Shown here piece by piece: positions 920 through 52,531 of a stretch of 64,000 nt of DNA; the first letter of the stretch is position 1, and each line of letters begins with the position of its first letter. This stretch comes from Tubulanus polymorphus. Lineage: Eukaryota; Nemertea; Palaeonemertea; Tubulaniformes; Tubulanidae. Made by a program: the position numbers and the translations under genes. The stretch lies in NCBI RefSeq assembly GCF_964204645.1, contig NC_134028.1, positions 620,001 to 684,000 on the forward strand, in the 5' to 3' direction. Under the pieces are notes generated by a model, which made no database searches, was not told the DNA's origin, and worked only from the letters and a program-made list of their open reading frames with translations.

Positions 920-6915
<5,996 letters not shown>

Positions 6916-27456: not shown

Positions 27457-27948
27457 TAAAATGTTGATATCTTAACAAAAATAATTACTGATAACTGATT
27501 CAGAGTGGTACTGATGCTGAAAAGAGGATGTACTGGGGTGTCCCGGGTTCAAACCCAGTAATTACTGACGCTGAATTACTGAGTGATACTGATGCTGAAT
27601 AGAGGATGTACAGGGTTGTCCCGGGTTCAGTAATTACTGATACTGATTCAGAGCGGTACTGATGCTGAATAGAGGATGCACGGGGGTGTCCCGGGTTCAA
27701 ACCCAGTAATTAATGATACTGATTCAGAGTGGTCCTGATGCTGAATAGAGGATGTACAGGGTTGTCCCGGGTTCGAACCCAGTAATTACTGATACTGATT
27801 CAGAGTGGTCCTGATACTGAATAGAGGATGTACAGGGGTGCCCCGGGTTCGAACCCAGTAACAATTGATACTAATTCAGAGTGGTCCTGATGCGGAATAG
27901 AGGATGTACGGATGCCCGACATGGAGAGGATATCAAGATTTTTTAACG

Positions 27949-31805: not shown

Positions 31806-34429
31806 AAAGCATATGTGTTTTATATTGTACACTTAATCCAGTCATCCAGTATTTGAGAACTCTTCGATCTTCCTCTTGAGCTCCGAGAACTTGTAACAGT
31901 TTCTTAGTTTCATCTTCAGTTCTATTTCCACCAGCTTTAGTGAACATGAATAACACTTTCACTTTACTGAAATATACACAAACATATAAACACAACACGA
32001 CCTAAATCGAATACAACTCAATCATCGATACTTACTTCATCCATTCCTCTTTTTGACAAATCAGACATTGAACGATGACCTCATTAGATAATTTATCATT
32101 CATCAGAGCAGCCTCCATCTTAGACAGGACAGTCGGACCTAATAATATACAACAATGCAGTTTAATCTGATTGTAATGATCGTGAGTAATCTGTTTGTGT
32201 GATTTGTGTAAATACCTCGTTCAGGAAGTTGTGCTTGTGAATGTAATGAATAAATTAACTGATTCACGTCAGGATTTTCGATATGATGCGATTGTTTTAT
32301 ATCCATCAATAAATAAAGTTCAGTTCGTAGAACGTGAGCAGGAATCACCGTATCCGGATACAATCCTAAAAAACTACATCTCCACGAGTCCTGATACTGA
32401 TCGCTGTAATACAGTATCTGACAGCAACCTTTAGGAAGCAGCATCTAAAAAAAATTCAAAAATATCATAGCTTCGCAGGTGACCTCTATAGGCGATCGCA
32501 GACATCACGAACAAACCTTCAAACAATCAATAATAGATCTGACGAGGTTCCTATTGTTCGATCTCAGGATGATTTGGTTTCCGATAACGACGTGATGAGC
32601 CAACAGATGAAACTTCTGGTAACCTAGCACCTGAAAAATACAAGCAATACAAGTGATACAATAGACTTATAGCCGGGTAAATCAAATAGAATGATAGAAT
32701 GAATTACTGAGAATACCTTTAACATGTGTTGTAGATTATTGAAATAAGGTTGTTCCTCATTACAATTAGATTCAATATCACTCGTATCTGTTACACTCAT
32801 TTTCTTAGTGAATACTTTAATAAATCCTTCATCAGTTTCTGCAATAACATAAAATTTCATATTCGTATTTTCAATTCAATTTACTAAGTGTAAGTCGTCA
32901 TTTGGAAATCATTAACATAATGACAGGGTCCGATCTAAGCACTTGTCCGATTGCACGGGACAAGTATATTCTCATCAGGGCTAGTAGGTAATCATTATCA
33001 CTTATCCCCCGGGCTAGTGCAATTTTATGGCACAAAGCTTTTTTTCCACTCGATACAACAAATGATAGTGCCACCGAGCGGACTGCCTGTGAAGGGCAAG
33101 TATTTTTTGGAGGGGACAAGCAATATTTCAGATATGCTTGCCCCTGGGCAATTGGCTTTCATTCCTTAGATCGGACCCAGAATAATCATGATAACTATAA
33201 CAATTTCAGTAGAGAACAAACAAACCTTCTTGTTTCTCTAGATCGACTATAGAATCCTCGGTAGGAGGTCCTTCCAGCAGTTTCTCAGTAAGTCTATTAC
33301 TACAAGCTTTTAGGATCCACGTGAATCTCAGATGAAGTTGACTGAAGATGTTTTTATCTCGTGTCAATTCGATCAGAGATCTCGCAGGTTTATTCTCCCC
33401 GCGATGTTGCCTGAAGTTCGCCGGATTCATACTAACCGCTAACCGGTGCGCCCTCTGGGGGCATTTAGCTTGCTCTTCCTCGTAAACTTTCGAAGCTTTC
33501 TCTTGTAAATGGTCGATGATTTCGCGGATGTGCTGAACTAAAAACGGCCACGAATTCAACAAATAAATCTTATCCATCATGACGACTAGAATACTATACC
33601 AGCGACTGAGTCCACGAGCGTGACTGTCTTTAATATAGAACGTATGAGAGAACACGTGACCTCTACTGTCATCGCCGAAAAAAAACGGTCCTTCTCGTCC
33701 GGGACAGACCTCACAACTGAGACTGCGTACGCACGCCTGACGCACCATACTGAATACCTGCGGGTGATCGGGATATTGATTACTGACGTAACTCACTTTA
33801 GCTTCGTGATCATTACTAATAAACCCCGGTTGAGTTGGTTCTAAAGACCTACAAGCCTGAAATAAATAAATACAAATATTCAAAACATCTTTCTCTTTTT
33901 ATAAAACTTTATCAGTGGTTCAGTTGTGACTTAGTTCAAGTGATGTTAAATGACTGATGTTGTTGTTAGACAGGCTATAGAACTGAGATGGTCTTAGACT
34001 GGTCTTGAATCTGACTGTAACCAGCTCCAGCAGTTGTTTAAACTTAACCAGCGGATAGTCGACATAGTGACAATTGAAGGTTCATTGTTACTATGGTATT
34101 TATCAGCTGGTTATCTTTAACCAACTGGCTGATGGTTTAACCCGACAGTTACAAACCTCACATAAATCAGCAGTTTTAACTTTTGTATGATTCAACATCG
34201 CCGCTGCAGCTCCCCCTGGTGGTGGTTGATCGTTATACGAGCTGGACGGAGACCGAGCTCCTCCTCTTTCCCGTACATAGTACGAGGCAGTAGAATCCTC
34301 ACGAGGAGAAGGAGGAACAGTACAATCTAACAGCTGGTGAGGATCCTGTGAGTGAAACGCTTGAGTACAGAATAAAACACTGGGTCCGTGAAGTTCACAG
34401 AAATGACATAATGAAATCACAGCGTTCAT
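31762..34429 (-). CDS. FLCN: Folliculin (complete)
   Basis: Minus-strand exons, in coding order: 34429-34157, 33856-33226, 32838-32717, 32630-32517, 32444-32216, 32138-32036, 31966-31762. They join in phase to 558 aa, close to the 579 of the human protein. Family hallmarks: [20 protein letters not shown] start; [34 protein letters not shown], with the arginine (about R172) equivalent to the human RagC/D GAP arginine finger; [60 protein letters not shown]. Longin domain about 1-290, DENN-type domain about 330-545. Folliculin with FNIP acts at lysosomes in amino-acid/mTORC1 signalling. The vertebrate acidic linker is shorter here. The last codons are minisatellite-encoded. Confidence 0.95.
32926..33178. 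mobile_element. MITE in folliculin intron 2
   Basis: Exact 14-bp terminal inverted repeats, GGGTCCGATCTAAG (32926-32939) and CTTAGATCGGACCC (33165-33178), with further inner complementarity around ACTTGTCC and GGACAAG. The superfamily cannot be assigned safely from the ends. Confidence 0.75.
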
Positions 34430-35012
34430 CTTTACTATTATTACTACGGTACCGCACCAATACCAGTCACACACAGACACAGTCTCAGACTCAGGTCAGT
34501 GCTGCCTGCCTGCAACAAATACAAACATCATCAATCACACTGATTTATCTAAAGCAATAGTTTGAACTGTTAGGAAGAATATTTTACCTATCAGTCAAAT
34601 AGAAACGATCCTTGATTTGAAAAGCACTAAGGTTAGTAGTGGAAATTCGATGCGTAAATAACCAAAATAAATGGGAATGTCATAACCGGAGCAACGACCT
34701 TGATTTGCTGTGACCTTTAACCTAACCCAAATCTAGCCCCAAGATGTCGTGTACTTTGTGTCCCCACTGCTCACGATCTGTAGTAATTTGTTAAAGGAAA
34801 TCGATATCACATATTGGCGAGGTCAATACCAATTTTAGTGCTATGTTTGATAAAAACCTGGATCAAATCCGTTTAGTAGGGAATTATCCGCGCCCCGATG
34901 AATAGAGGATTCTACTTCCTGCCGCTGGGTGGTGCACCGGTCGAAAACTGCAGTTTTATATAGTCATTAGACATTATTGCATTGCGAATTGGTAAATCGA
35001 TCTTAAGCCGCG
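34430..35012. promoter_or_regulatory. Divergent promoter region, folliculin / TXNL1 copy
   Basis: Head-to-head start codons at 34429 (-) and 35013 (+) leave 583 bp. No TATA box stands out. A shared promoter is inferred from layout. Confidence 0.4.
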
Positions 35013-35655
35013 ATGTCTGGTAATTTAAAAGTTTTAAACGATGATGCTGAATTTCAGGCTGAACTGAACAGCGCTGGTTCAAAACCAGTCGTCGTAGATT
35101 TGTTCGCAACCTGGTTAGTTGCCCGAAAGACCTGACCACCACCAAAAAACAAATAAACAAAAATCCATTCCGATTTTTCCATCAATCGGTGGTTCCTTTG
35201 ATAAACTATTTACAAATTGATTGAGATGTCAAGAAAAACATATGCCGTATTTGCTTTAACCCTAACCCTATCACTTAACCTCTGTGTACTAACAGATCTG
35301 TTTGTATTTGTTGATTTACCTGTAGGTGGCGCCCTTGTCATCAAATCGCGCCTGTTTTCGAAGGAGACGCCACCAAATATTCTAATGCCGTTTTTCTAAA
35401 AGTTGACGTCGATAAATTGACCGTAAGTCCATGAGAGACGGGTTCGACCGTACTTTAAGCTTCCAAAAAATCCGTCGTATTTTGCTTTAATGATTTATTG
35501 GTCGGTTTTTTAGGAAGTGACGAATCGGTACAATATCACAGCGATGCCGACCTTCACCTTCTTCAAAAACAAGGTCAAAGTCGAAAGGAAAACATCAAAA
35601 AGCATTATCAAGAGCCAGGAGAAAATGATGAAACAGTCGAAGTTTAAGGCCATGT

Positions 35656-36605
35656 AAGTTTGTGAAATACAGTAGACTCTGTCTCTTACTGCGGTAAAGT
35701 TGAGACCGGTAAAATTCTACCCCGAGTTGATGTCAAATACCGAGTAAGAGTTTGTGATATACAGTAGACTCTGTCTCTTACTGCGGTAAAGTTGAAACTG
35801 GTAAAATTCTACCCAGAGTCGGTGTCAAATACTGAGTAAGAGTTTGTGAAATACAGTAGACTCTGTCTCTTACTGCGGTAAAGTTGAGACTGGTAAAATT
35901 CTACCCTGAGTTGATGTCAAATACTGAGTAAGAGTTTGTGAAATACAGTAGACTCTGTCTCTTACTGCGGTAAAGTTGAGACTGGTAAAATTCTACCCCG
36001 AGTTGGTGTCAAATACTGAGTAAGAGTTTGTGAAATACAGTAGACTCTGTCTCTTACTGCGGTAAAGTTGAGGCTGGTAAAATTTTACCCAGAGTTGGAG
36101 TCAAATACTGAGTAAGAGTTTGTGATATACAGTAGACTCTGTCTATAACTGTGGTAAAGTTGAGACCGGTAAAATTCTACCCCGAGTTGGAGTCAAATAC
36201 TGAGTAAGAGTTTGTGATATACAGTAGACTCTGTCTCTTACTGCGGTAAAGTTGAGACCGGTAAAATTCTACCCAGAGTTGGAGTCAAATACTGAGTAAG
36301 AGTTTGTGAAATACAGTAGACTCTGTCTCTTACTGTGGTAAAGTTGAGACCGGTAAAATTCTACCCCGAGTTGATGTCAAATACCGAGTAAGAGTTTGTG
36401 ATATACAGTAGACTCTGTCTCTTACTGCGGTAAAGTTGAGACTGGTAAAATTCTACCCCGAGTTGATGTCAAATACTGAGTAAGAGTTTGTGATATACAG
36501 TAGACTCTGTCTCTTACTGCGGTAAAGTTGAGACTGGTAAAATTCTACCCCGAGTTGATGTCAAATACCGAGTAAGAGTTTGTGAAATACAGTAGACTCT
36601 GTCTC
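35656..36605. repeat. 92-bp satellite in TXNL1 copy intron 3, about 10 copies
   Basis: Units contain ATACAGTAGACTCTGTCTCT then TACTGCGGTAAAGTTGAGAC and ...CCCGAGTTGATGTC. TACAGTAGACTC-type ends are common on Tc1/mariner/pogo MITEs, so the array may be an amplified MITE. It begins two bases after the donor. Confidence 0.9.
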
Positions 36606-36907
36606 ATTCCTCAGCTGTTAACTGATTGGCCAATTACGAATATTTAAGATTAAACTCATGAATATTCAAACATACCTCATCAATATTGAAATGAACCTCA
36701 TGAATATTTACAGATTGATTTATCCAAGATGATACAGATGAACGGTTTGGAATGTTTAAACGAATCGGACGATCATACGTTGAAACTCGTTCTCTCTCCT
36801 AAAGGCGGATATTTACAGTCGGACTGCGATGAACAGTTGATAATTTCCCTCGAATTCTCACAAACTGTACCGGTACATTTGTTAAAGATGTACGACCCAG
36901 ACAGTAA

Positions 36908-37475
36908 GAGACTCCAGCGTCCCTAAGACTCCTTGATTCCTTTAAACAGCGTCCCCATGAATCCTTGATTCCTTTAAACAGGGTCCCTAAGACTCCTTAA
37001 TTCCTTTAAACAGGGTCCCTAAGACTCCTTGATTCCTTTAAACAGGGTCCCTAAGACTCCTTGATTCCTTTAAACAGCGTCCCCATGAATCCTTGATTCC
37101 TTTAAACAGGGTCCCTAAGACTCCTTAATTCCTTTAAACAGGGTCCCTAAGACTCCTTAATTCCTTTAAACAGGGTCCCTAAGACTCCTTGATTCCTTTA
37201 AACAGGGTCCCTATGACTCCTTAATTCCTTTAAACAGGGTCCCTAAGACTCCTTGATTCCTTTAAACAGCGTCCCCATGACTACTTAATTCCTTTAAACA
37301 GGGTCCCTATGACTCCTTGATTCCTTTAAACAGGGTCCCTAAGACTCCTTGATTCCTTTAAACAGGGTCCCTAAGACTCCTTGATTCCTTTAAAACAGGG
37401 TCCCTAAGACTCCTTGATTCCTTTAAACAGGGTCCCTAAGACTCCTTGATTCCTTTAAAACAGGGTCCCCATGTC
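36908..37475. repeat. 32-bp minisatellite, about 17 copies
   Basis: Unit AGGGTCCCTAAGACTCCTTG plus ATTCCTTTAAAC. It starts within about 5-10 nt of the donor at 36904. A GCGTCCCCATGA variant recurs three to four times. Confidence 0.94.
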
Positions 37476-37884
37476 TCCTTGAAAGTTTCTGCCTTAAAAC
37501 TCCTTACATTCAAACTCAAATTATTCAACTGAATTTTTCAGATGGAACTGCAGCAAAAACGATTAAACTTTTCACGACTCAACCGCAAACTTAAGACTTC
37601 GACTCGGCAGAGAGTATGGACGCAATTCAGAAAATACGGTAAGTTTTAAACGTTTGTCCCCTCCCCCAATCTCTCTCCCTGAGTCTCCCCATCTCTCTCT
37701 CTCTTCCTGAGTCTCTTTCATCTTGTTTCTTTTTGATCGCAGATTGACCCTGGATGATGTAAAAGAAGGAACTGTAATACCGCTACGATACGTCAAATTC
37801 AAAAATGTTTCCACCGTTTCGGTGAGAATGAAAATCATCATAAGTTTCAAATGCCGACGAAGGCGCCCGTCGTAAGATTGTTTT

Positions 37885-38110
37885 TTTCGTCGCCCGGTGA
37901 AGATCGATTTTAAGATTGTTATTTTCAAGATGGTTTCGTCAGATGTTATTTCCATTGGTGAAGATCTTTATTTTCGCGATGATGTTTTCGTTAACGGGTG
38001 AAGATTATTATTTTCGTCGACCAGCATAGATCAATTTTAAGATGTTATTCTCAAGATGGTTTTGTCAGATGTTATTTCCATTGGTGAAGATCTTTATTTT
38101 CGCGTAATTT
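37885..38110. repeat. Two ~125-bp direct repeats
   Basis: Segments from about 37899 and 38025 share AAGATGGTTTCGTCAGATGT (or ...TTTTGTCAG...) and ATTTCCATTGGTGAAGATCT. Together with the frame at 38112-38313 they lie where the missing TXNL1 exon is expected. Confidence 0.75.
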
Positions 38111-38554
38111 AGATAAATGACGCTGATGATGCCGACAACGGATGCGGTTGCTGCGGCAACGCAAATGATGATAACAATGATGATTATGATGATTATTTAA
38201 CCGAGGAGGAAGAACATGAATTTATTAAAACGCGTTTTCAAATGATTTTAATGAGGTTTAATATTGAATATAGACAACCGAGTTTCTTAGGTCATTATTT
38301 CTCCCTGCCCTAGTAGAGTTTATAAACAAATTTCCGAAAGGGTTGATTTATGAGGATATTTGGTGGATGTTAGGCTCCCCCTTCCTTCTCCATTCAGATT
38401 AGATATTTTTGAAATTTACATTTTTCTTATGGCCACTTACGTTTTGTAAAATTGTGTTATTGTTTATTTCACGTATGTTAAGATATTTCAGTCACGGATT
38501 TATTTGGAATTTCAACCTGAATTGAGACAATGAATTCTGAGATATTTTCACCAT

Positions 38555-38707
38555 CTGTGGAACCTCGTTTTAACAATTTATCAGTTATTACAAAACTAGA
38601 ATTTCATTCCAGATAAGACAAAATCAATTTTTTCCACACTTGATATAACGAATTATAATTAACAGATTTTCTGGTGCCCTGAAGTTCGTTGCAACGAGGT
38701 TCCGCTG
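38555..38707. mobile_element. Probable pogo/Tc1-type MITE
   Basis: Ends TGTGGAACCTCGTTTTAAC (left) and, on the opposite strand at the right, CAGCGGAACCTCGTTGCAAC. GGAACCTCGTTNNAAC is typical of pogo/Tigger-like terminal repeats. About 150 bp, no coding capacity. Confidence 0.55.
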
Positions 38708-38825
38708 TATAATTTCCTAGATTCTAAGAATGTTTTACAGACTTATCGACGACAATGATTAACCACTAAGAAATACTTTCTTTTTATTATTTCAGGTGGC
38801 AGGAAAGAAAGGCAAGAGTCATTGA

Positions 38826-40075
38826 TGGCGAGGGTCAATATGCAACGTACATTATTTCACCAAGCAACAAAGATTAGGAACTTAAGGGATTAATTTCACC
38901 AGAGAAATGTGACCACATTACAACAGCGAGCGTATGAATTTGTGCGAGGCAAATTGAAAATAACCACTTTTATTGCATTGTGATTAATAAACTCAATATT
39001 ATCATTATCATTTACTGAATGGTTTTTCTTTTGAGTTTATATTTCTTCTATCAGAGAGGACCGGCATCAATGATGACGTGATTTTTGTAGGCTTAAGCAA
39101 AATTTAACACTTAATGTGGAAAAAAAGTGGCAGGTGGCAGTTTTTCACTTAGTGAATTGCATCAATGCCTAATCATGACTTGTCTGACTTATCACAACTA
39201 GTATCCTCATGGACAGACTGACCCTGTACGCATGATTTGATACCGCCATACTCTGACCAAAATCAAAAATTGGGATAAGAGTAAATTGGAACATCAAGAA
39301 ACGAAATTCTAATATGGACTTTCCTAAATGTACATGATGATGTACCGTTTAATCTCCAGTTGAGTATCAAAATTAAAGAAAACAATTTGTTTTTTTTTTA
39401 AATTATGAGTGGTAAGCATGAAGTTTTTGGCAGAATTTCAGAGGATCGGTGCTCCAAGTAATTAAAAATGCCTCATATATCTCCCCTCAATTGAATCGAG
39501 GAGTTTTTTTTAATGAAAATCTGTCTATTGACGGGATTCTGTGATAACAGTATGAATGATGAATAACCGTGAATACATGGTATTAGTGGGTTTTCCCCCA
39601 ATGACTCAAATAGACCGCTTTCCTCGTGCATGTGAGGTAGTTATCTCGGGGTGCATGAACTGTCCGTGACTAATAAACTAATTTCATTAGTAAATTTACG
39701 CGGTTTCTATGATATGAACCCTGTGTTGGTGTGAATCTTTAACTGGAAGTGCTATCGGTCGGTATAATTTATAAATTATTCTAGAATTTAAGAAAAAAAA
39801 AACAGGAAACATAAATTCGGAAGTAGCTGTCGGGAATCAAGTAATTTATTTCATGGCCTTATTAAAGTTCCTCCACTATATTGTTCAGCTGACTACTGGC
39901 GCGTATTCAACCCGGCGGTGGAACCTCATAATGTAATCCATTCAACAATAGAGACACAATTGCGGTCTTTCAGAGTTGTTGATAGCATTCATACGCGCTA
40001 TTGAATACGTCACCGGCTGACCACGGTGTACACACAAGCATAGACCATTCACCTCTGCACACTCACACTGTGAAC
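38826..40075. other. Spacer after the TXNL1 copy
   Basis: Apart from the AATAAA at 38986, no gene, array or clear element was recognised. AT-rich unique-looking sequence. Confidence 0.5.
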
Positions 40076-40465
40076 ATGCTACCGTGGATTCTCCTCCTGG
40101 CGATTTTCGCTCCGCTCCCGCTCCTGCTCCTGTTCCTGCTTCCTGAGGAACGACGTCTTTATGTTTTATGTGTTACTGTTCGTCTCTGTACTGTCCTGTA
40201 CTGTTCTGTGTTAATTAATCCGTTCTATTTTTCAGCAATTAACCCGTTTTATTTTTCAGGGCCGATTCCTCTGTCGAATTTCAACGTTTGCTGGAACAAA
40301 ACTAATGTCCGAAAGCGTCGGCCCTCCTTCGCCGGTCATGGGTCGAGGATGTCAGACAAAGAGTCGGTCAGGAAATTCTGCCCTCTGCACGCCCTCATAC
40401 GGAACACGAAAACCAGGATGACGAGGCCTCACTGCCCCCACCTATCTACAAAGTGTGCTGAGTGA
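40076..40465 (+). CDS. Small open frame with an N-terminal hydrophobic segment (doubtful)
   Basis: The ATG opens a 129-codon frame beginning MLPWILLLAIFAPLPLLLLF, a plausible signal peptide or membrane helix, followed by an Arg/Cys-rich stretch. Its 3' half is the left arm of a large inverted repeat (40285-40485). A short motif (TTCTATTTTTCAG / TTTTATTTTTCAG) is duplicated within. No family resemblance seen. Chance ORF or element-encoded sequence is as likely as a gene. Confidence 0.15.
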   Translation: MLPWILLLAIFAPLPLLLLFLLPEERRLYVLCVTVRLCTVLYCSVLINPFYFSAINPFYFSGPIPLSNFNVCWNKTNVRKRRPSFAGHGSRMSDKESVRKFCPLHALIRNTKTRMTRPHCPHLSTKCAE

Positions 40466-41070
40466 TGTCAATGACGGGCATATCTGCGGGATTGCGCGGG
40501 ATACAAATGGAGCGGTTATACTGGATTGTCACGCTACTAGCATTCATTGTGTCCTTGTGACCACCCGGATGAGGGATGATTCTACTGTCACGCTCTTTGT
40601 TTCTGGTATTCTGAGTCGGCTGAGGGATGATTCTACTGTCACGCTCTTTGATTTCTAGTTTGAGTGCTAGTTTTCATTGTGTCCTTGTGATAACCTCGGT
40701 CAGTGGATGAAGTCTCTCGTCGGCTTGTGAGTGCTAGTTTCATTGTGTCCTTGTGATAACCTCGGTCAGTGGATGAAGTCTCTTGTCACGCTTTTGAGTG
40801 CTAGTTGAGATCCTGAATCTCAACCCGGTCAAGCTGGTTGTACTGCACTATTTGTGTTTCGTGCAATTTTACAGGTGTGTCCGTTACTGACGTCGCCCAG
40901 TACATCCTGCAGTTAGATGGGGAATGTGAGGCGTTGTCATCCTGGTTTTCGCATTCTGTGTGAGGGCGTGTAGAGGGCAGTATATTCCTGGCTGGCTCAT
41001 TGTCTGGTGTTCTCGGCATGTGACCGACAACGGAGAGCTTAAAAGCTTTCGGACATTAGTTTTGTTCCGT
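40285..41070. repeat. Large imperfect inverted repeat (~200-bp arms)
   Basis: Left arm (about 40285-40485) contains GGAACAAAACTAATGTCCGA, CTGCCCTCTGCACGCCCTCA and ACGAAAACCAGGATGACGAG. The right arm (about 40875-41070) is its complement, with TCGGACATTAGTTTTGTTCC at 41049-41068. Between lie two small duplications: GATTCTACTGTCACGCTCTT at about 40578 and 40630, and a 60-bp GAGTGCTAGTTT...GATAACCTCGGTCAGTGG unit at about 40660 and 40725. Confidence 0.75.
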
Positions 41071-41110
41071 ACCAGGTTTTCATCACTCTTCTCTTTTTTT
41101 TTATTTCAGG

Positions 41111-41480
41111 ATTCCCAAGATGAAGAAGAAGATGCTGAAGGCGACTACAAAGAAGACTATGCCGAAAAAAGAACACTGAACTCAGCAATATTGAAAGTTA
41201 AGTTGATACACATGTAAATTACGATGTATGATACAGAAAGGATTGTGTAACTACAGAATATCATTCTTTTACTCATTTCAGCTAAACTAAATCTGGAAAG
41301 GCCCAGCGTGATATCAACCTAAAATCTACCCACCAGAAGTGACCACAAAAGACTCCACCTTGAATAAACCAACCACCGAGAGACCTGCTGCAACCGAACC
41401 TGGCAGTCTTGACCTCATTCTGCATAAGCAACAGGAATGCATACATACTGGGACATAAAGCTAAGTTGATTATTCATACC
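41111..41480 (+). other. Exon-intron-exon-like module, copy 1
   Basis: After a strong polypyrimidine acceptor (TTTTTTTTATTTCAG, ending 41109) comes an acidic open stretch DSQDEEEDAEGDYKEDYAEK ending near TTGAAAG at 41195. About 85 nt later a second acceptor (TCATTTCAG) precedes CTAAACTAAATC. The whole arrangement aligns with 45700-46080. Here the donor site reads GTTAAG rather than GTAAGT. Could be a spliced non-coding RNA or a fast-evolving gene; neither is shown. Confidence 0.35.
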
Positions 41481-41559
41481 TGGAGCAAAATGCATAGGCA
41501 CTGGAAAGGATAGAGACGCTGGTCCAACTCGGCATCGTGGCCGGTATATTGTTGATAGT

Positions 41560-44350
41560 AAAATGAAATATAACTAGGGCAATGATTGCTTAAATATTTA
41601 CACTATTAGACGAAATCAATGAGTGAGGTCCCTTATATATATATATATATATATATATGTACAATTAAGATAAATTCAATATCTTATGTGACATTTGAAA
41701 TTTTTCGAATGTACCGTAGATATTTCAGGCCTCATATGACTATTGTTTAACTGACAATCAAGATATAGAGATAGGACAATTTACTAATTAACCAATCGCT
41801 TAGATATTAGCAATCATTCAATACTTATAATGTTTGATAAAAAATTTTTCTGGTCTAGATATTTTAGGGCCCCGTTTACATAAAGGCTGGCTTTACTTGT
41901 AAAGATATATATCAATTAAACTTTATCGTCGGTTAATAGATTTTTTTACAAATAGTTTATTGATACATTTATAAACATTCAGGCACTTTACAGTATATAT
42001 TATATGCTGCTTTACCCATTGCATTAATGAATTTCTGGGGGAAAGATGTATAAAATAGTGTCTAGGGCTCTATCGAGATCTGGTGTAATATGGGGAAAAC
42101 TATGGACTGTGCATCTTTTAGAAACTATGATTACGTCTCAGCACTTTGACAAATCTAGAATGAAACAAAGCTTAAATTGATTCAAATCATTCCCCAGAGC
42201 CATACTCTGTGCCTTGTTTTGCGCTATGATTATTGATTAACTGACAATTATCATATATATAGCTTGGACAAATTGCTCATTAACAAATGGCTTAGATATC
42301 CATAATTAAGATTCCACAATCAATATTTCATGTAAGATCAAAAACTATATGTAATACAGGTCCATAATATAAATGTCGTTAAACTGAAAATTAAATATAG
42401 CTGATATATGTATGAGCACATCTGAATCAGTTTCATCGACTGATCAGTACTTGCATCTCAAACTGCCGTACTTACGGCGACTGGTCATGCTGTTCAATAT
42501 TGCCAAAATTTACCAAAACTTAACTGATTCAAATAATATCTAAAAGACACACTGTGTGTCGAGTGACGCATAATAGATGTAGTTTAACTGACAATTAGAA
42601 TATAGCTTGAATTACTCATTAACGTATTACTAAGATATCTACAATTAAGGTATATTCAATTGTTATGTGAAAATATTTTTAATTCAGGTCCATGGTCATT
42701 TAAAGCTGATACATGTGTATCTGAGCACATTTATTTATCTGTATCTAATGAACCTATTGTGTCTTCATACAGCTGTATTAACGCAGATTTACTTCCGATC
42801 GAAGGGAGATAAAACAAATCTGTGCACAAATACATTCCTGAATTTGGAAGGGGGATTATTTCAATTTCACTGTGTATGTCAGATTGAGAGCCTTATTCTG
42901 ACAGGATATCCTAAACTTAGGTCTTATTCCTCTTGCTAATAGCTCTCTTTTACTAACCCCTCTCCTTCAAACTATTTTCTAGCATCATGACTCGCACCGC
43001 ACCAGGGAGGTCCGGTCATAACAAGGTCTTTTGGTCCTTATACACAGTGTACTATATAAGGTAAATAAAGATTATATAGCAATTCGTTTAAGGGAGTTTC
43101 TAATTTACCACTAAAAATGTGCTATATTTATCTTTAATTTCTGATGAATTCAAATAGTGACGAATTCACCACATCTGAAATTCTACTCATGTAGATTTTC
43201 AGGCTCCATATAAATATTGTTCAACTGACAATTAAAATATAGCTAGTATGATTACTAATTAATGGTTCGCTTAGATACCTAGAATTTAATTAAAATTAAT
43301 TCAATGTAATGAATATAAGTGAAACTTATTCAAAATTTCACAGTGGATGAGACGACTGTATTGCGCAATGTCATCTGCGTCTAACTGGGCCACATGTGTG
43401 TGTGTGTGGGATCTGTTGAATCAGTTAGGTTTTGGAGGATTCTGGGTTAGTTAAGCTAGGTATCAAAAGCTCTGATGCAAAATCAGCGGTTCAAATAGTG
43501 ATTAATTCAAATTCGTACCAGATCTGAAATTCTTCTCGTGTAGAAATTTCAAGCCCCATATAAAATATTGTCCGAGACAATTTCAATTATAGCTAGGACA
43601 TTAAGGACATTATCAATTAACTAATTGATTTGGTATCCAATTCAGCATCTTAATATAAGGCAAAAGTGCTCAAATCTAAACCATAGGGGTTGATAAGACA
43701 ACTGTTTTATTTAATATTGATTGATATATAAAGAATACTGGGTATGTTTTAACTCTGTCTCTTGTGCGTGGGATTTATTGAATCTTTAAGGCTTTGCAGA
43801 ATTCTGGATTTGTCGAGTTGTGGGAATGATTCGAGGTTTCTTAAATCTGTAGAACCATGTTACTTATAGGATCAGTGTGCTCAATGCTGGCAGCGCACTC
43901 ACTCTTCAGTTAGTTATATTATCATAATTACAAAATCATTGTATATATTAGGAGCAATATTTAGAATTAATGAAATGGATTAGAATACCATTCACTGGGT
44001 ACAGATGTCGCCATCTGTGGGTAGAAAACATCTCTTAAGTTTATTAACTGACGATGAAGAAAACTTGATAATACGAACATGGTTTAGCTGACAATCGAAA
44101 TATATATAGGCCAATATTACTAGCAGGTTTGCACTGTATGATGGGCCTGGGTTTCAATAAAAAACACATCAAGAATTTCAAGAAGATAGAAGAGAAAACA
44201 GTTCAAAAACGATTTGATAAGATTGATTATGCATTACTAAATTTGTTGTAACTCTGGTATTCCTAGAGATGACTATAGATGCTTTAGTTGAATTGTTGTT
44301 AAACTATAATAATCAACCATTGCTTAGATATTTAGGATATAGATGAATTA
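41560..44350. repeat. Decayed long-period AT-rich repeat
   Basis: A diverged motif close to TTTCAGGCCCCATATAAATA then TTGTTTAACTGACAATTAAA, TATAGCTAGGACAATTACTA and ATTAACnnnTNGCTTAGATA recurs near 41735, 42235, 42585, 43205, 43555 and 44085, with partial copies near 41570, 42360 and 44300. Spacing is 350-650 bp. No coding capacity. A (TA)n run lies at 41635-41658. Confidence 0.65.
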
Positions 44351-44529
44351 CTATATGCGTTGAATTTCATAAATATCATTTAAGACTATTATTAAAATCT
44401 ATGTAGCTTGCCGTTTCAGACTGATTGGAAGATAGTTTGAATGAACCGGAATCAAATTTCCCAATTATGTACTCCGATTTCAGACATACTCGAGAAAAAC
44501 TACAATAAACTTTAAAAAATTAGACAAAT

Positions 44530-45430
44530 TTAAACGGTGAAAATGACAAAAAAATTAAAGTTAGACAAAATTCTCCCACCTTGTAAACTTCCGGACTAGT
44601 TACATGAAAAAAGACCAAATATTGTAAAATATAGTTATTTCCAAAATCTCGATGTATTAAATTAGGCAGAAAAAAAATAGATAAAATTATTCAACCTTGT
44701 AAACTTTCGGACTAGTTACATGAAAAAAAGACCAAATATTGTAAAATATAGTTATTTCCAAAATCTCGATGTATTAAATTAGGCAGAAAAAAAATAGATA
44801 AAATTATTCAACCTTGTAAACTTTCGGACTAGTTACATTAAAAAAAGACCAAATATTGTAAAATATAGTTATTTCCAAAATCGCGATGTATTAAATTAGG
44901 CAGAAAAAAATAGATAAAATTATTCAACCTTGTAAACTTTCGGACTAGTTACATGAAAAAAAGACCAAATATTGTAAAATATATTTATTTCCAAAATCTC
45001 GATGTATTAAATTAGGCAGAAAAAAAATAGATAAAATTATTCAACCTTGTAAACTTTCGGACTAGTTACATGAAAAAAGACCAAATATTGTAAAATATAG
45101 TTATTTCCAAATCTCGATGTATTAAATTAGGCAGAAGAAAAAAAATAGATAAAATTATTCAACCTTGTAAACTTTCGGACTAGTTACATAAAAACAAGAC
45201 CAAATATTGTAAAATATAGTTATTTCCAAAATCTCGATAAATTATTAAATTAGGCAGAAAAAAAGTTAACCCCAATCAGTCACTTAATATGTGCTTCGAC
45301 TATTTAAACGGTGAAAACGACCAAAAAAATTGAAGTTAGACAAAATTATTAAACGTTGTAAACTTTCGGACTAGTTACATAAAAAAAGACCAAATATTGT
45401 AAAATTATCTTCAACCTTGTAATATAGTTA
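44530..45430. repeat. ~117-bp AT-rich satellite, 6-7 copies
   Basis: Units contain CTTTCGGACTAGTTACATGA, AAAAGACCAAATATTGTAAA and TTATTTCCAAAATCTCGATG. The GGACTAGTTACAT motif recurs at 116-118 bp spacing from 44593 to 45177, with a more diverged last copy. Flanked by similar GTTTGAATGAACCGGAA segments at about 44436 and 45467. Confidence 0.93.
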
Positions 45431-45699
45431 TTTCCAAAATCAGAATTAGGCAGAATAAAAGATTGTTTGAATGAACCGGAACCGAATTACCAATTATGTT
45501 CTTGGACTTAAAAAAAACGACCGCCGATCAGGCAACTATATCTGTACTTCGATTTCCGATTTTGAAAAAAACCGCCGTTTCGCTCCCGGCAGGTGTGGTA
45601 GGTTTGTAAGGGACACCAACTCAAACGAGAGCTTGAGGTCAACAAATCATCAGAAATCTGCCGATTAGAGAACAGCGCACAGAAGGGGCCGATTCGAAT

Positions 45700-46080
45700 G
45701 AAACTCAAGAACCAACCAACGTAGGAGATCCGATAATGAACACAGCAATCATAGAAGGTACAACTTGAATTGAATTCATCAACTACCATGGAAGAGTCCA
45801 ACGAATTTAACTCATGAACCAACTAGGACAATCCTAGCCGATACTCGGCAATCTTGAAAGGTAAGTTGATTCACATGGAAATTATTATGATTAATGTTAT
45901 ATGAAATATTGTGTGAATACAGGATATTGTCTTTAACTCTTTTCAGCTGAATCACATCTATGAGAAAAAGCCCAACTAAGATCAACTAACCATCTAGAAT
46001 CTACTGATTAAAACAGTCAGCAGAATGAATCCAACTTGAATTTAACTGCTGAAGTCTAGATGAGAAATTCAGCCAGCATC
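45700..46080 (+). other. Exon-intron-exon-like module, copy 2
   Basis: Aligns with 41111-41480. CTTGAAAG|GTAAGTTGATTCACATGG at about 45852-45875 is a good donor; an intron of about 85 nt ends TCTTTTCAG before CTGAATCACATC at about 45948. The stop-rich flanks argue against conserved coding. Confidence 0.35.
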
Positions 46081-46109
46081 GGTTTATCGCTCACTGATGG
46101 ATTTCTTCT

Positions 46110-46250
46110 ACAATTGGTGGAGCAGAGACATTGCGTCTCTCATTACAATTATTCAGGAGCAGCAGAGACAATGCGTATCTTATAAACACTTATTCAGGAG
46201 CAGCACAGACAATGCGTATCTTATAAACACTTTTTCAGGAGCAGCAACGA
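46110..46250. repeat. Three tandem ~57-bp units
   Basis: Units contain TTCAGGAGCAGCAGAGACAA then TGCGTATCTTATAAACACTT; the first copy is more diverged. Confidence 0.8.
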
Positions 46251-48681
46251 CAGTAGAATATGTGAAGTATTGATTTATTTTACGTATCACCTTTTTACAA
46301 ATCAGTCTGATGTGTCTTTACAATCAGTCTTTACAAAATTCACTATCTATTTGAAGGGGCGGAATAAACTAAAGAATAGTTGATTAGTTGTTGAAATGTT
46401 GATTATTAAAATTAGGTAATTTGGGCCCTGGGCCTGAGAAGGAACTATTCATGTTTGAATATTTCAATAAAATGGCATCCTCCTGATTCTTTATACTGAG
46501 TAGGCAAACTGTTTAGATTTGTTAAACAGATGAGTCATTTAAGTCCTTAAAGTTCCTTCTTGGAGTCTCATAAAATTTACGCTCCATTAATTCATGGTAT
46601 CGATCGAGTTCAGCGTATCAGTTTGACTCGTAGGTCGGTTGAAATACACGTAAATTGAGATATAATATCGACAGGATAGTTCAGATAAGCTTCATACTTT
46701 AGTTAAACATAGCTTTGCTTAATTTGTAATAATCATATAGTTCATAGAATGAATTACTCTCTTAGTCTTTATTCGATTATTAATATTAGAAATAGTGATT
46801 TATTTTATATTTTATTGAGTGAAAATGATTTGCATAGCCTAAATGTTCAAAAGGGAGAGCGTAGTCAGTTAAACAGTTGCAACTTTTAAACGCAATAAAG
46901 GATATTGGAACGTTATTAGTTTGATCTCTTGAACTTGATTTTGATCGTTTTAATTTTGTTTATAGCTGTTTTAACTTCTTTCATTGTCATCCACATCATA
47001 AGGTTGAGTGGCTTTCATACTAATCGGGGTGTTTTATAATAAACTATTATTTAGGTGCAGCAGTGAATTTGTAGCACTTTTTTAAAGTGAGCCCATAATT
47101 TCACCGATAAAAAATTCCTGATGATGTAGATTGTAATAATTAGTACAAAATACATGGAACATAATTAAGAAAAATACATTAAAAAAAACAATTAATAAAA
47201 AAAATACATAACAAAAAAAAACAAATTAAATTATAAGTAATAAAAATAAATGAAACCAACAAACAATTAGTAAATATTCTATATAGGGCCTTCATCATCA
47301 GGCATTTTTTCTAATCACTTTAATCCAATTATTAAAGGTTCTTCTTTCATAGAACAACCTTCTCCGTGTTTCCCAACCTCTTGAGATCCTTTCTGTTGTT
47401 GTTTTAAGCATTCTATCGGCTCAGTAATAAACAAAACAAATAACCATAAACCTTAACTAAATCAAACACACTAAAAAATATCTGTTTCGATAGAATGCTT
47501 CAAATAACTGATGAAAGATCACGCGTCCTTTTACCTATATATCACACCCTATCACTGCTGTAACTGTTAATTGTTTTAGGGATAATATCTGGGAGATACA
47601 TTTTACTCTTTTAGAAAGAATGTTAAACAGCTATAAACGTGATTAGTTATCGATAGTAAAATTATTGTCATGTTCTCCCTGAAATAACGTTGTATTAAAT
47701 GAGCGAACTGATAATGTTTGAAAATCTCAGGCAAAGTTAGAAAAACTCTAGTTATCTTGTAAAACTCTAGTTATCTTGGAAAATAATTTTAATGAAAATG
47801 AAAATAAAGATTGATTAGCTAATCTCAAGCTTTCCAGAGTTAATCTTTAGGTTTTATCTCTGATTTTAATGCTTTTATGTTGAACTGTTTTTTTTTTTCA
47901 AATACAGTTCACCCATTGGTTAACGAAGAACTGATAATTCCTCGAATACAAAGCAAAGTTTGCAAAATTTCAGTTTTCTTGTAAAAATAATGTTAATGAA
48001 ATGAAATTAGAGATTGATTATTTGAATGAATTTGTGGTTTTATGTCCAGCTTTAATGTTTATATACTAGAGATATGTTTTGCAGTTTTTTGTATAAACAG
48101 AAATCTTTCTTACATTTTCATTTGCTGTATAGTTGATATGATAGAATGCTTCATATTTCATTAAATAATCAAGTGTCACTCATGCCCGGTGACATCATGA
48201 AATGTCAAATTAATAGTCTTAGACATTCGGACTAGTCCCAATTGTCGGTGTTTTATGGATCAAAGTTTACAATTCTTTGTGTAAATTTGTTATTTTCCTA
48301 TTGATTCAAATTGTATGAATCAGTTGCAGTGGAAATTTGAATAAAAACTTTGAAATACCTTGCATGATATGTGATATTAAAAGCTAGTAATTTTATAATT
48401 GAATAATCTAAGTCATTATTATAAGGCTAAAAATGATACCTTGTTTTTCCTGATCAGGCGGGTCATTTCATAAATCAATGAAATTTGTAATCAGTTAGCC
48501 TAATTTCTATCTGCCGGGTCTGTTATGGTTAGCTTATCATGATTTTAAAGTAATACCTTGGTAGATAGGTGGCCGGCCGGGTCAAATTTTAAAGAGTAAA
48601 AATGTAAATCAGATTGATTCATTAAATCTTACGCTTTCCAGAGTATTTGGCCAGGTTTATCTCTGGTTTTAGTGCGGGGAG
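46251..48681. other. AT-rich gene-free stretch
   Basis: No exon seen. A-rich low-complexity sequence at 47155-47240. AAGCATTCTATCG (47409-47421) and CGATAGAATGCTT (about 47490-47502) form an inverted repeat; TGATAGAATGCTTCA recurs near 48138. The segments at 47685-47810 and 47890-48010 share CTGATAAT and CAAAGTT motifs and look like an old duplication. Confidence 0.5.
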
Positions 48682-48796
48682 CCATGGACTCCAACAGTTT
48701 AGAGTCCATGGTTGTAGGCCATAGACGTTTCTGTTTTGAGTCTATGTATGGACCATGGATGTATAAACTCTAGTTTATAGTTTATACATCCATGGT
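48682..48796. repeat. Two adjacent perfect hairpins sharing CCATGG
   Basis: CCATGGACTC (48682-48691) pairs with GAGTCCATGG (48702-48711). ACCATGGATGTATAAACT (48752-48769) pairs with AGTTTATACATCCATGGT (48779-48796). Both arms are exact. Mechanism unknown; foldback element or cruciform-prone site. Confidence 0.85.
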
Positions 48797-49185
48797 TGGA
48801 CGGTTTTTGAAATACAGTCCACGTGTTTGAGGAGCTTACGTTATAATTCCTCGAGCACAAACCTGGCATTTTGTATAATTGTTGTACACTGTATGAGAAT
48901 AAATGTGATTGAAATTCTTTATCTGTTTAGCTGCTCTGAACTTTGTTAGTTCACCAGTCAGTGGTTTTTTGTTATCTTGCAATCCACCTCTTTTTTCAAC
49001 CCAATATTCCCACCAACATTGTGCGGAGACGAGGATGTCCGGAAAACATGATAATCGAATATTGGCAATACAGCTTACCACTTCAACCCGGACACACTAA
49101 CACTAGTTGATCGGTTAGAAGCGAGTGTTGAGCTGCCGAAGAGTAATTAGGAAATTAGCAATCGTTTTGATTGTCACTATAGCCA

Positions 49186-49262
49186 TCAGGGGCGGATCCA
49201 GACCGTATTGCCCAATACATTGTTTCTACGGTCTAAAAATTTAAGTGCCCTTCGGCAATATT
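49186..49262. mobile_element. hAT-like element end
   Basis: CAGGGGCGGATCCAGA at about 49188 is typical of the terminal repeat of hAT-family MITEs. The opposite end was not found, so this is a fragment at most. Confidence 0.4.
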
Positions 49263-49344
49263 TTGTGACGGCATATATATTTCCACTGATGATCGGTTTG
49301 ATTTTTATATACAGAAGCAGAGTCCTGAATAGTTAATCGTCTCT

Positions 49345-50242
49345 AAGGTTCGAACCCAGTAAATACCGATACAGATTCAGAGTTGTACTGATGCTGAATA
49401 GAGGATGCACGGGGGTGTCCCGGGTTCAAACCCAGTAATTACTGATACTGATTCAGAGTGGTCCTGATGCTGAATAGAGGATGCACGGGGGTGTCCCGGG
49501 TTCAAACCCAGTAATTAATGATACTGATTCAGAGTGGTACTGATGCTGATTAGATGATGTACAGGGGTGTCCCGGGTTCAAACCCAGTAATTACTGATAC
49601 TGATTCAGAGTGGTACTGATGCTGAATAGAGGATGTACAGGGGTATCCCGGATTCGAACCCATCAATTACTGTGATTCATAGTGGTCCTGATGGATAAAA
49701 GATAAACTGGGGTGTCCCGGGTTCAAACCCAGTAATTACTGATACTGATTCAGAGTTGTGCTGATGCTGAAGAAAGGATGTACAGGGGTGTCCCGACCGT
49801 ACAGTGCTGCCGCTATGCTCATCGTTAGCGGGATTTTCATACACTAACTAAAGTCAACTCTGGCAATCGTCGTGCTGTCCAGTTATACTCCGTGACCTTA
49901 GCTTGCCAGAGTTGACTAACGTTAGTGTATGAAAATCCCGCTAACGATGAGCATAGAGGCAGCACCATACGGTAAAATGTTGATATCTTAACAAAAATAA
50001 TTACTGATAACTGATTCAGAGCGGTACTGATGCTGAATAGAGGATGTACGGGGGTGTCCCGGGTTCAAACCCAGTAATTAATGATACTGATTCAGAGTGA
50101 TACTGATGCTGAATAGAGGATGCACGGGGGTGTCCCGGGTTCAAACCCAGTAATTACTGATACTGATTCAGAGTGGTACTGATGCTGAATAGAGGATGTA
50201 CGGGGGTGTCCCGGATTCGAACCCAGTAATTACTGATACTGA
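49345..50242. repeat. 76-bp satellite block B with nested foldback F1
   Basis: Same 76-bp unit as 27190-28290 (spacing of GTCCCGGGTTC measured at exactly 76 between 49417 and 49493). About nine units, interrupted at 49796-49973 by a second F1 copy. Confidence 0.92.
49796..49973. mobile_element. Foldback element F1, copy 2
   Basis: Nearly identical to 27280-27456, including the outer flank TCCCG on the left and AAAATGTTGATATCTTAACA on the right. Shared flanks mean the element was amplified with its satellite and did not insert twice. Confidence 0.88.
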
Positions 50243-50376
50243 CGTGGTTTCTGCGTCTGGAGGATTTCACTGTCAAAGTTGAATCCGTTTCTTCAGTAGA
50301 ATTAACTGCGGTATCACTTGTTGGATGCAGGCTCTCGTCTAACGGATCGACGGTATCAGTTGGATACAGCAGTAGT

Positions 50377-50503
<127 letters not shown>

Positions 50504-50533
50504 GAACCATTGTTAGGTGTTGATTACTGATAT

Positions 50534-51381
50534 ATGAATGATCTACCGATGGAATTATTGAATTCACAGCTTGTTTCACTAATTCTATATGTAATGATCT
50601 TTCCTCTAGTTGTTCAGTTCTATCTCTCGATCCTGACGCCAGCAGCACGGCCATTAGTTAGTTACCTAATCGTCAGCGGTAAGCTTTTTATAATCGGATG
50701 GGCTTATACCATGTGGTTTGTGAAAATATCCGATCGTGAAACTAAACCACAGACAAGTTACTGACTACACGGCCATCGTCAATTTGAGTTGATGTTTTTT
50801 GACAATCAATTGCTCTTTATTGACAATCATCGGGATCTGTTCCAGCCGTACAATTCGTCTTGTGATTTTCTAGTTTCTCTTCTGTTTCATAAAGCCCTCT
50901 ACACTTTCCGCAGCAATAAAACACGCAGTCCATTGCAATAAAACTGGTTCATTTCAATAAATGTGTGAATACTCCACCACCTAGGACATCCTGCTCCCTC
51001 CAACTAACTGCTCCCTAACTTCACTTCAGTCTTTTAAAACTTGTGACCAGTAAATGAATACTTATTTACAAATATTCTGTTGATTGTCTATTGTAGGTCA
51101 TTGATTGTGTTCTGATGAAGATTGTCTGAGATACAACTCAGGTTTTCTTAAGAATTAGAAATTAAACGTATTAAATTGAATGAGCTCAATATGTACAGAA
51201 TGAATTGTTGTTGTTGTATCATAGTCAGTTTGAAAAACGGATGAAACATGAATTGAAAAGTCAATCCAGGTCTAATTGTTAGTATATGTATATTGATTTA
51301 ATTTCAGAAAGTAACGTCAATCACGAATCAAAGAGATTAACGAATCCAGCATTAATCATCATGAAATTAGATTCCAAATAA
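50534..51381 (+). CDS. Possible two-exon 72-aa membrane peptide
   Basis: ATG at 50534 opens MNDLPMELLNSQLVSLILYV, then MIFPLVVQFYLSILTPAARP and LVSYLIVS, with a hydrophobic stretch about 13-33. A strong donor (GCG|GTAAGC) follows 50678 and a good acceptor (TTTAATTTCAG) ends at 51307. Joining them keeps the frame and adds ESNVNHESKRLTNPALIIMK and LDSK before TAA at 51379-51381. Without splicing the frame runs to 50764. I recognise no family. The exon overlaps, on the opposite strand, an Asp-repeat open frame. Support is limited to phase-compatible splice sites, which happen by chance one time in three. Confidence 0.35.
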
Positions 51382-52531
51382 CAAGTGGTGAAACTCCTTG
51401 ATTCTGATGCAGTGATGAGATTTAAAGAGCTGGAATTTATGGATAACTACTCGAGCGAGTATGTAGTTGGAATTGAGATATTGAATAAGATTTTGTACTA
51501 GAAGTGGACAATAAATATAGAATGGCAGTAAAAAAGAGTTTGTCGTGATGGATTGTATACCCAATTTCTAGCAAAAATCATTTTTGGTCCACGAGGAGAG
51601 GAAAATATTGCGAATATCCAGATGATCTGAATCACTGGTTTTACCCAAGTCTGTCCCAACTCACTGTCTGTGTCGAGAATATAAGTAGAGATGTTGCGGT
51701 GGATCCAAATATCTGATCTCACAAAACACTGACGAGGAGTTCAACTACTGTAAACTTTATTCAGACTTTAGTGAGTTTCACATCATAAACACAACAATTC
51801 ACTGAATATATTCCACATACACTTTATAAAGAAAGCATGTCCCCCTTCGGCCAAGTTCCTTCAGAATGACTATCGCGGCTGAGCCCTTTTTCTTACCTAC
51901 AAATTGAATAAGTATTAATCAGTTGTCTGTTTGAATTTCGAGTAAATATCAGCGGATTATTTCGCGCGATACTTACAGGAATTAATGCATTCTCTTCGGT
52001 CTTTGAATTTCCTTTTGTTTGCTGATTACATTTATGGTCCATAGATTATCAGCTGATTTTCCAGTGCGATTTTGATATTACTCCTAGTTTCGCTCATTCG
52101 ATGAGACGCCATTTTAACCCGGAAGTAACTCGACACTGACATGTTTGACATGCATCGAAAATGTAAAATGGAGGATGGGATCAACCGGTCTCTTACTGAA
52201 GGTAGAGACCGGCAACCAGTCTAACCCAAATCCTCACCCTAAACCTAAACCTAAACCTTAACTACTTGTACCCGATAGTTTAAGGAATACAAAATTGACA
52301 ATACAAATGAAGTTTTATTTGATAAGATATTTATGATTTATTACAAAATTATAAAGTAAATCACGGAATCGAACTATAATGAAAACACGGAATTGGCATG
52401 AGTCTTACTCGCGACGCGGGCGGTCAAATCAAATTTATAAAAAGTGAAATTGTGTTTTCATCTACGCATTACAACACCAATAAACTCTGAAACGAAAATG
52501 AATTAAAACCGTGAACCTCGAGACAATAGTT
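51382..52531. other. Spacer before the EF-hand gene
   Basis: No gene seen. CCTAAACCTAAACCTAAACC near 52230-52260 is telomere-like. TTTATT at about 52314 and 52337 are AATAAA signals on the minus strand, suitable for the EF-hand gene. Confidence 0.5.

Follow-up and report, generated by a model that had tools for sequence, protein, structure and literature searches.

The 64,000-nt stretch of DNA analyzed here (C4:620001-684000, hereafter the window) bears a broken, intron-containing copy of thioredoxin-like 1 (TXNL1) at 35013-38825, and it raises the question of whether a duplicate of the gene is dying or the animal has lost the gene altogether. A sequence-only reading had described the locus as a decayed TXNL1 with seven matching exons and clean splice sites, and our analysis agrees with it. 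Seven exons were recovered, the six donors are all GT and the six acceptors all AG, and Pfam matched the thioredoxin domain (E-value = 1.1e-20) as well as PITH in exon 4 (1.3e-13) and in exons 5-6 (3.9e-12). Concerning the PITH pieces, the top match among solved structures was TXNL1 itself (human TXNL1, 9.5e-31). A processed retrocopy is ruled out because the introns are kept, as had been stated before. The parts of the gene are the following:

35013-35113, + strand, TXNL1 exon 1, start codon retained
35326-35422, + strand, TXNL1 exon 2, active site WRPC, not CGPC
35514-35653, + strand, TXNL1 exon 3, with a 31-nt frameshift deletion and TAA at 35645
36714-36903, + strand, TXNL1 exon 4 (PITH)
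37542-37638, + strand, TXNL1 exon 5, with TAA at 37592
37743-37821, + strand, TXNL1 exon 6
37841-37850, + strand, junction at which about 400 nt including the penultimate exon are missing, by comparison with other copies
38796-38825, + strand, TXNL1 last exon, VAGKKGKSH followed by a stop
38986-38991, + strand, AATAAA polyadenylation signal

The lesions called from the letters are all present in the sequence. Exon 3 is 140 nt long, while that of the intact gene described below has 171 nt, a difference of 31 nt that causes the frameshift; both TAA codons (35645 and 37592) fall in TXNL1-matching frames; and the redox cysteine is lost, with WRPC standing at the CxxC site where the intact gene has CGPC. 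If spliced as annotated, the copy reaches a stop after 118 aa, short of the C-terminal histidine. This stop lies in exon 4, 171 nt before the exon end, and therefore nonsense-mediated decay is predicted: the copy would yield no useful protein, and its transcript, if any, should be degraded. It is very improbable that the truncated product, with its 118 aa or, when exons 4-5 are skipped, 148 aa, serves as a functional redox-dead thioredoxin. The frame is open across exons 1-3 and two of the 32 exon combinations do reach the native C-terminus, giving 148 aa (exons 1, 2, 3, 6, 7) and 75 aa (exons 1, 2, 7), but some in-frame skipping combinations are expected by chance, and both the position of the stop and the neutral substitution pattern presented below argue against a function.

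The penultimate PITH exon, which had not been found by the first reading, is indeed absent. No credible tblastn match to it was obtained anywhere in the window, the three + frames of 37822-38796 gave no Pfam match up to E 1, and at about 37841-37850 the copies C6a, C8a, C8b, C9, C11b and C12 (named here by contig) hold some 400-480 extra bases together with this exon. The last TXNL1 intron of the window also contains a 66-aa acidic open stretch (38113-38313) with no Pfam match. Rfam, at the gathering threshold, and ARAGORN returned no matches in the window.

An intact paralog was sought across the genome (267.8 Mb, 77 contigs), as the first reading had advised, by PITH and thioredoxin searches and by DNA searches. 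An intact TXNL1 gene was identified on contig C12, with eight exons at 1003839-1006928 and encoding a 289 aa protein with a CGPC active site; 158 of 286 aligned residues are identical with human TXNL1. TXNL1 copies were located on C4 (the window), C5, C6 (three), C8 (two), C9, C11 (two) and C12, and among the copies read only that of C12 is intact. About ten broken copies, some of them incomplete, are thus found on six contigs other than C12. Several dispersed copies keep introns and flanks; C6c consists of exon 1 alone, and the C5 copy is known from DNA matches alone, with no exon-by-exon reading. Matches to exon 4 were limited to seven places (window, C12, C6a, C8a, C8b, C11a and C11b). A further PITH place on C2, presumably PITHD1, matches TXNL1 exon 4 poorly. 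Between the fates originally proposed, a dying duplicate or a lost gene, these data decide for a duplicate, and specifically a dispersed one; the animal has not lost TXNL1. A tandem duplicate within the window was rejected, tblastn having given no second copy. That the animal's only TXNL1 was lost, leaving the window locus as its remnant, would suit a locus broken in several ways, but it is scarcely credible given the intact 8-exon gene on C12 and the insertion signature at the window locus.

The frameshift did not arise at the window locus. Its deletion junction in exon 3 is common to all seven broken copies that keep this exon (window, C6b, C8a, C8b, C9, C11a and C11b) and absent in C12; the broken copies therefore appear to stem from one defective master that was multiplied. 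C8a, C8b and C11a have lost one additional base at the junction. Concerning the other lesions, only the window has the two TAA codons among readable copies, that at 35645 being found in none of the six other readable copies (C12, C6b, C8a, C8b, C11a, C11b) and that at 37592 in none of five (C12, C6a, C8a, C8b, C11b). The cysteine-to-tryptophan change is not private, as it is present in five of the seven broken copies examined there; C6b retains CGPC, and C8b retains the start of the active site ahead of a deletion.

Private coding changes summed over eight broken copies were synonymous in 14 out of 57 cases, with 14.1 expected (share 0.248), in a count with fixed frames that omits the C5 copy, takes exon 1 only from C6c and may include added changes from indels near some C11b exon ends. 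C9, the most conservative broken copy, had 4/8 synonymous changes (P 0.11), and C12 had 4/6 (P 0.037). Since the synonymous share is as expected, the private changes of the broken copies fit neutrality, and the mobile copies would be evolving as if nothing depends on them. Additionally, the window copy retains all residues aligned with E136, D162, R234 and H289 of human TXNL1, which are proteasome-contact residues (PMC12700798), and therefore its decay looks young. The two TAA codons, together with the kept splice sites and start, lead to d of about 0.036 (0.011-0.124) since decay onset, in agreement with the end branches of the 3'-flank tree (0.014-0.033). On a drift yardstick with a single replicate per level of d, the PITH pieces of the window scored 101.9 bits, human TXNL1 131.6 bits, and mutated human sequence 96.8, 96.3, 29.7 and 28.8 bits at d of 0.05, 0.1, 0.2 and 0.3, respectively.

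The relevant unit is much larger than the gene remnant to which attention was first drawn, and extends over 34734-52223. Its components are:

34725-34733, no strand, left target-site duplication (TSD) ACCCAAATC, identical with the 9-mer at 52224-52232
34734-52223, + strand, probable 17,490-bp non-autonomous terminal inverted repeat (TIR) element with TXNL1, colinear with dispersed copies, right end common to many, left TIR cut to TAG
39451-42600, + strand, element stretch occurring at many other places, most of them without TXNL1 among the matches listed
51001-52223, + strand, right-end module with a hairpin and the terminus ...GGCAACCAGTCTA, inverted repeat of TAGACTGGTCGCC
52224-52232, no strand, right TSD ACCCAAATC

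We consider it highly probable that a non-autonomous TIR DNA transposon took up the entire host TXNL1 and that this unit is a single insertion of it. The 9-mer ACCCAAATC is located directly before TAG/CCCCAAG at 34734 and directly after 52223, and an edge match as good as this pair was reached in 22 out of 200,000 trials with random edges in the window. The right edge is sharp: from 165 candidates, 40 non-self matches to 51800-52420 were scored, of which 26 terminate at 52221-52227 and 14 stop before that, while none extends further. All 20 right ends fetched read ...CAACCAGTCTA (final CAGTCTA) and then diverge, except for two places on C3 with a common flank. Two of eight short relatives present both ends and a perfect TSD, with TAGCCCCACT (10 bp) and GAAAAGTAA (9 bp) around TAGACTGGTCGCC...GGCAACCAGTCTA; no TSD was seen in the other six. 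The exact left-end pattern occurs at 400 genome sites (187 + 213), with none for the reversed control, and clear TIR similarity spans about 13 bp. The TXNL1 copy C8a is also preceded, at a distance of about 260 bp, by a 63-bp miniature with both TIR ends.

In the window the right TIR is present and the left repeat is reduced to TAG. C11a bears an exact left TIR upstream of TXNL1, and C6c has one with two mismatches in front of it; in C6c, TIR-like sequence occupies the 107 nt ahead of the point where the window's left repeat breaks off, and thus about 104 nt were likely deleted from the window's left repeat after insertion. A TSD was sought for C6c, whose exon 1, its only one, lies between TIR-like ends, and for the C5 copy, and none was seen; no copy retaining most of TXNL1 was seen over its full length with a TIR on either side and a TSD. 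The stretch at 34736-34808 is common to about 30 other genome places, where CAGCAAGCGCCGC precedes it in 15 of the 20 fetched, often after a TCA/ATC run.

Homology to the other copies begins at 34736 in the longest cases and is colinear up to about 48.9 kb (C12, C6a) and 52.2 kb (C6b). Left edges vary among copies (34736, 34838, 34981, 35248). Up to about 44 kb, identity in the long matches is 83-94%; beyond it they are patchy, at 68-90% (C12, C6a, C6b), while 46.5-49.3 kb matches other places at up to 97%; the unit may therefore be mosaic beyond about 44 kb. For the 38.2-42.6 kb stretch there are 971 candidate genome places, of which 40 were scored, and most of the matches listed come without TXNL1. 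Nested inverted repeats were also observed within the element at 40293-41068, one pair of arms being perfect over 24 nt and another 74% identical over 142 nt. An ordinary segmental duplication, in which large TXNL1 blocks spread by recombination between repeats and the unit did not transpose, would account for the variable left edges, for blocks that are repeat mosaics and for the flank shared on C3, and the DNA examined around C12, C6a, C11b and C8b showed no TIR. It is nevertheless an unlikely reading, as the right end is fixed, the ends are inverted repeats and TSDs of 9-10 bp are found, also at the two edges in the window. A LINE inserted by TPRT, suggested by the variable left ends, was ruled against by the terminal inverted repeats and the two full-length relatives. 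Helitrons, for their part, have no TSD and a CTRR 3' end; the hairpin near the right end recalls them, but a Helitron was rejected, since TSDs are present here and CTA is followed by a variable base.

Folliculin adjoins the broken copy on the opposite strand (Pfam 2.6e-60), with its start codon probably near 34429 (taken from the ORF list, no domain match confirming the start). With ACCCAAATC at both edges of the unit, the head-to-head pairing that had been reported looks like an insertion accident.

Regarding its class, a Pack-TIR is the most suitable reading of the unit with TXNL1, and its TSD length is Mutator-like. Mutator-like elements leave TSDs of 9-11 bp, and here they are 9 bp in the window and 10 and 9 bp in two relatives, six of the eight relatives having none; as in a Pack-TIR, captured host sequence is accompanied by a separate parental copy, which in this case shares the downstream repeat. 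Among 56 MULE-domain matches in the genome, none was linked to the TIRs of the element. No TIR was detected within the 20 kb of C12, where about 9 kb downstream of the gene are the same repeat as in the broken copies. This can be explained by an element adjacent to the gene whose left end was bypassed: family sequence adjoining TXNL1 and the bypass of one end probably enabled the capture. A single event, after or together with the exon-3 deletion, would have taken up the upstream region, exons, introns and downstream DNA of TXNL1, a transposase would then have mobilized the composite, and each copy would have decayed as a passenger. Alternatively, C12 could itself be an element copy preserved by selection. 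C12 falls inside the 3'-flank tree, which has a star-like shape and weak support; together with the common downstream repeat, this means that parent and vehicle are not cleanly separated.

Two large satellite arrays occupy introns of the window copy:

35657-36605, + strand, 92-bp satellite of about 10.3 units in TXNL1 intron 3, a genome-wide satellite
36915-37482, + strand, 32-bp array of about 17.7 units in TXNL1 intron 4

Of the first 25 nt of the intron-3 unit, 23 agree with the start of C12 intron 3. No such unit is present in C12, while 2 to 11 were counted in each of seven broken copies, so the array grew in the mobile copies. The 92-bp satellite is also present at dozens of other genome places, and it possibly originated inside the captured gene. 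Derivation of the satellite unit from the TIR was rejected, with an alignment score of 23 and a shuffle maximum of 28. A different, 76-bp satellite unit was seen at three places of the window (27482-27909, 49347-49795 and 49998-50242); it contains GGTTCAAACCC or GGTTCGAACCC, which resembles a tRNA B box. Arrays starting just downstream of 5' splice sites were observed at 3824, 20791, 25901, 26505, 28961, 35657, 36915 and 56473. In a post hoc test, made after the pattern was seen and with some intron ends approximate, 8 of 15 intronic arrays start at most 35 nt from the donor, where 3.4 are expected if placed at random within introns (P 0.004). Mirages of amphioxus are described in PMC3087553 as minisatellites touching exon-intron boundaries; the arrays reported here are likewise near splice sites, but their units are mostly intronic.

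Of the whole window, 20% consists of arrays that are at least about 80 bp long. The first reading had suggested that the satellites grew because selection was gone. In its favor, arrays are present in broken copies, C12 intron 3 has no units, and TXNL1 has the highest array share among seven gene spans (46%). Against it, arrays also occur in introns of the other six, presumably healthy genes (TYW3 with 38%, a carboxypeptidase gene with 33%, PSD with 21%, GALNT with 11%, an unnamed gene with 4% and FLCN with 1%), and the intron-3 array is genome-wide. Array growth in the mobile copies fits relaxed selection without proving the cause.

In plants, TIR transposons are well known to capture genes. 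Concerning animals, the cases in PMC8277862 are mostly short and single-copy: 370 Pack-TIRs were reported in 100 animal genomes, with inserts searched below 5 kb, four of them are multicopy, the illustrated multicopy one is a 291-bp UTR piece, and no Pack-MULE is reported there from the reference genomes. The element described here resembles these Pack-TIRs, with host sequence between DNA-transposon TIRs, a separate parental copy and TSDs, but it appears larger and multi-copy (about ten copies, some partial), with 17.5 kb that include an entire gene of eight exons and with a family repeat beside the parent, a situation that the pipeline may miss according to its authors (PMC8277862). The same source presents Ssk-FB4 of Drosophila as a Pack-MULE with 9-10 bp TSDs and several insertions. 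Both systems have captured a nearly complete gene with introns; however, FB4 has TIRs of about 700 bp and its family is argued to be functional (PMC8277862), whereas here clear TIR similarity extends over about 13 bp and all mobile copies that were read are broken. Plant Pack-MULEs (PMC6431247, PMC13317346) have in common with the element that genes are captured and amplified in a Mutator-like way; for them, PMC6431247 gives none above 7 kb in the survey of Jiang et al. (2004) and calls full-length gene acquisition exceptionally rare. Turmoil-1 of Caenorhabditis elegans is likewise an animal TIR element with transduplicated host coding sequence (PMC2572040), but it has fragments inside its TIRs and not a whole gene. 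In a partial coverage of the literature, mainly at title level, on TXNL1 pseudogenes, invertebrate TXNL1 loss and gene capture by animal elements, no report of such a case was found.

A fuller scenario can be put forward only tentatively: a Mutator-like animal transposon may have taken up an entire multi-exon gene, promoter included, through the bypass of one end and multiplied it as a cargo of 14-17 kb, and a 92-bp repeat that includes the 5' splice site of this gene may have arisen in the captured intron 3 and then spread as a genome-wide satellite. TXNL1, a gene with introns that encodes a proteasome cofactor, occurs about ten times in broken form, so a single genome that also has the intact parent allows its capture, its amplification and its neutral decay to be measured. 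The locus also calls for caution, since transposons can create intron-containing duplicates and tidy gene neighborhoods, and the effect of the copies on the parent TXNL1, for instance via small RNAs, is a testable question.
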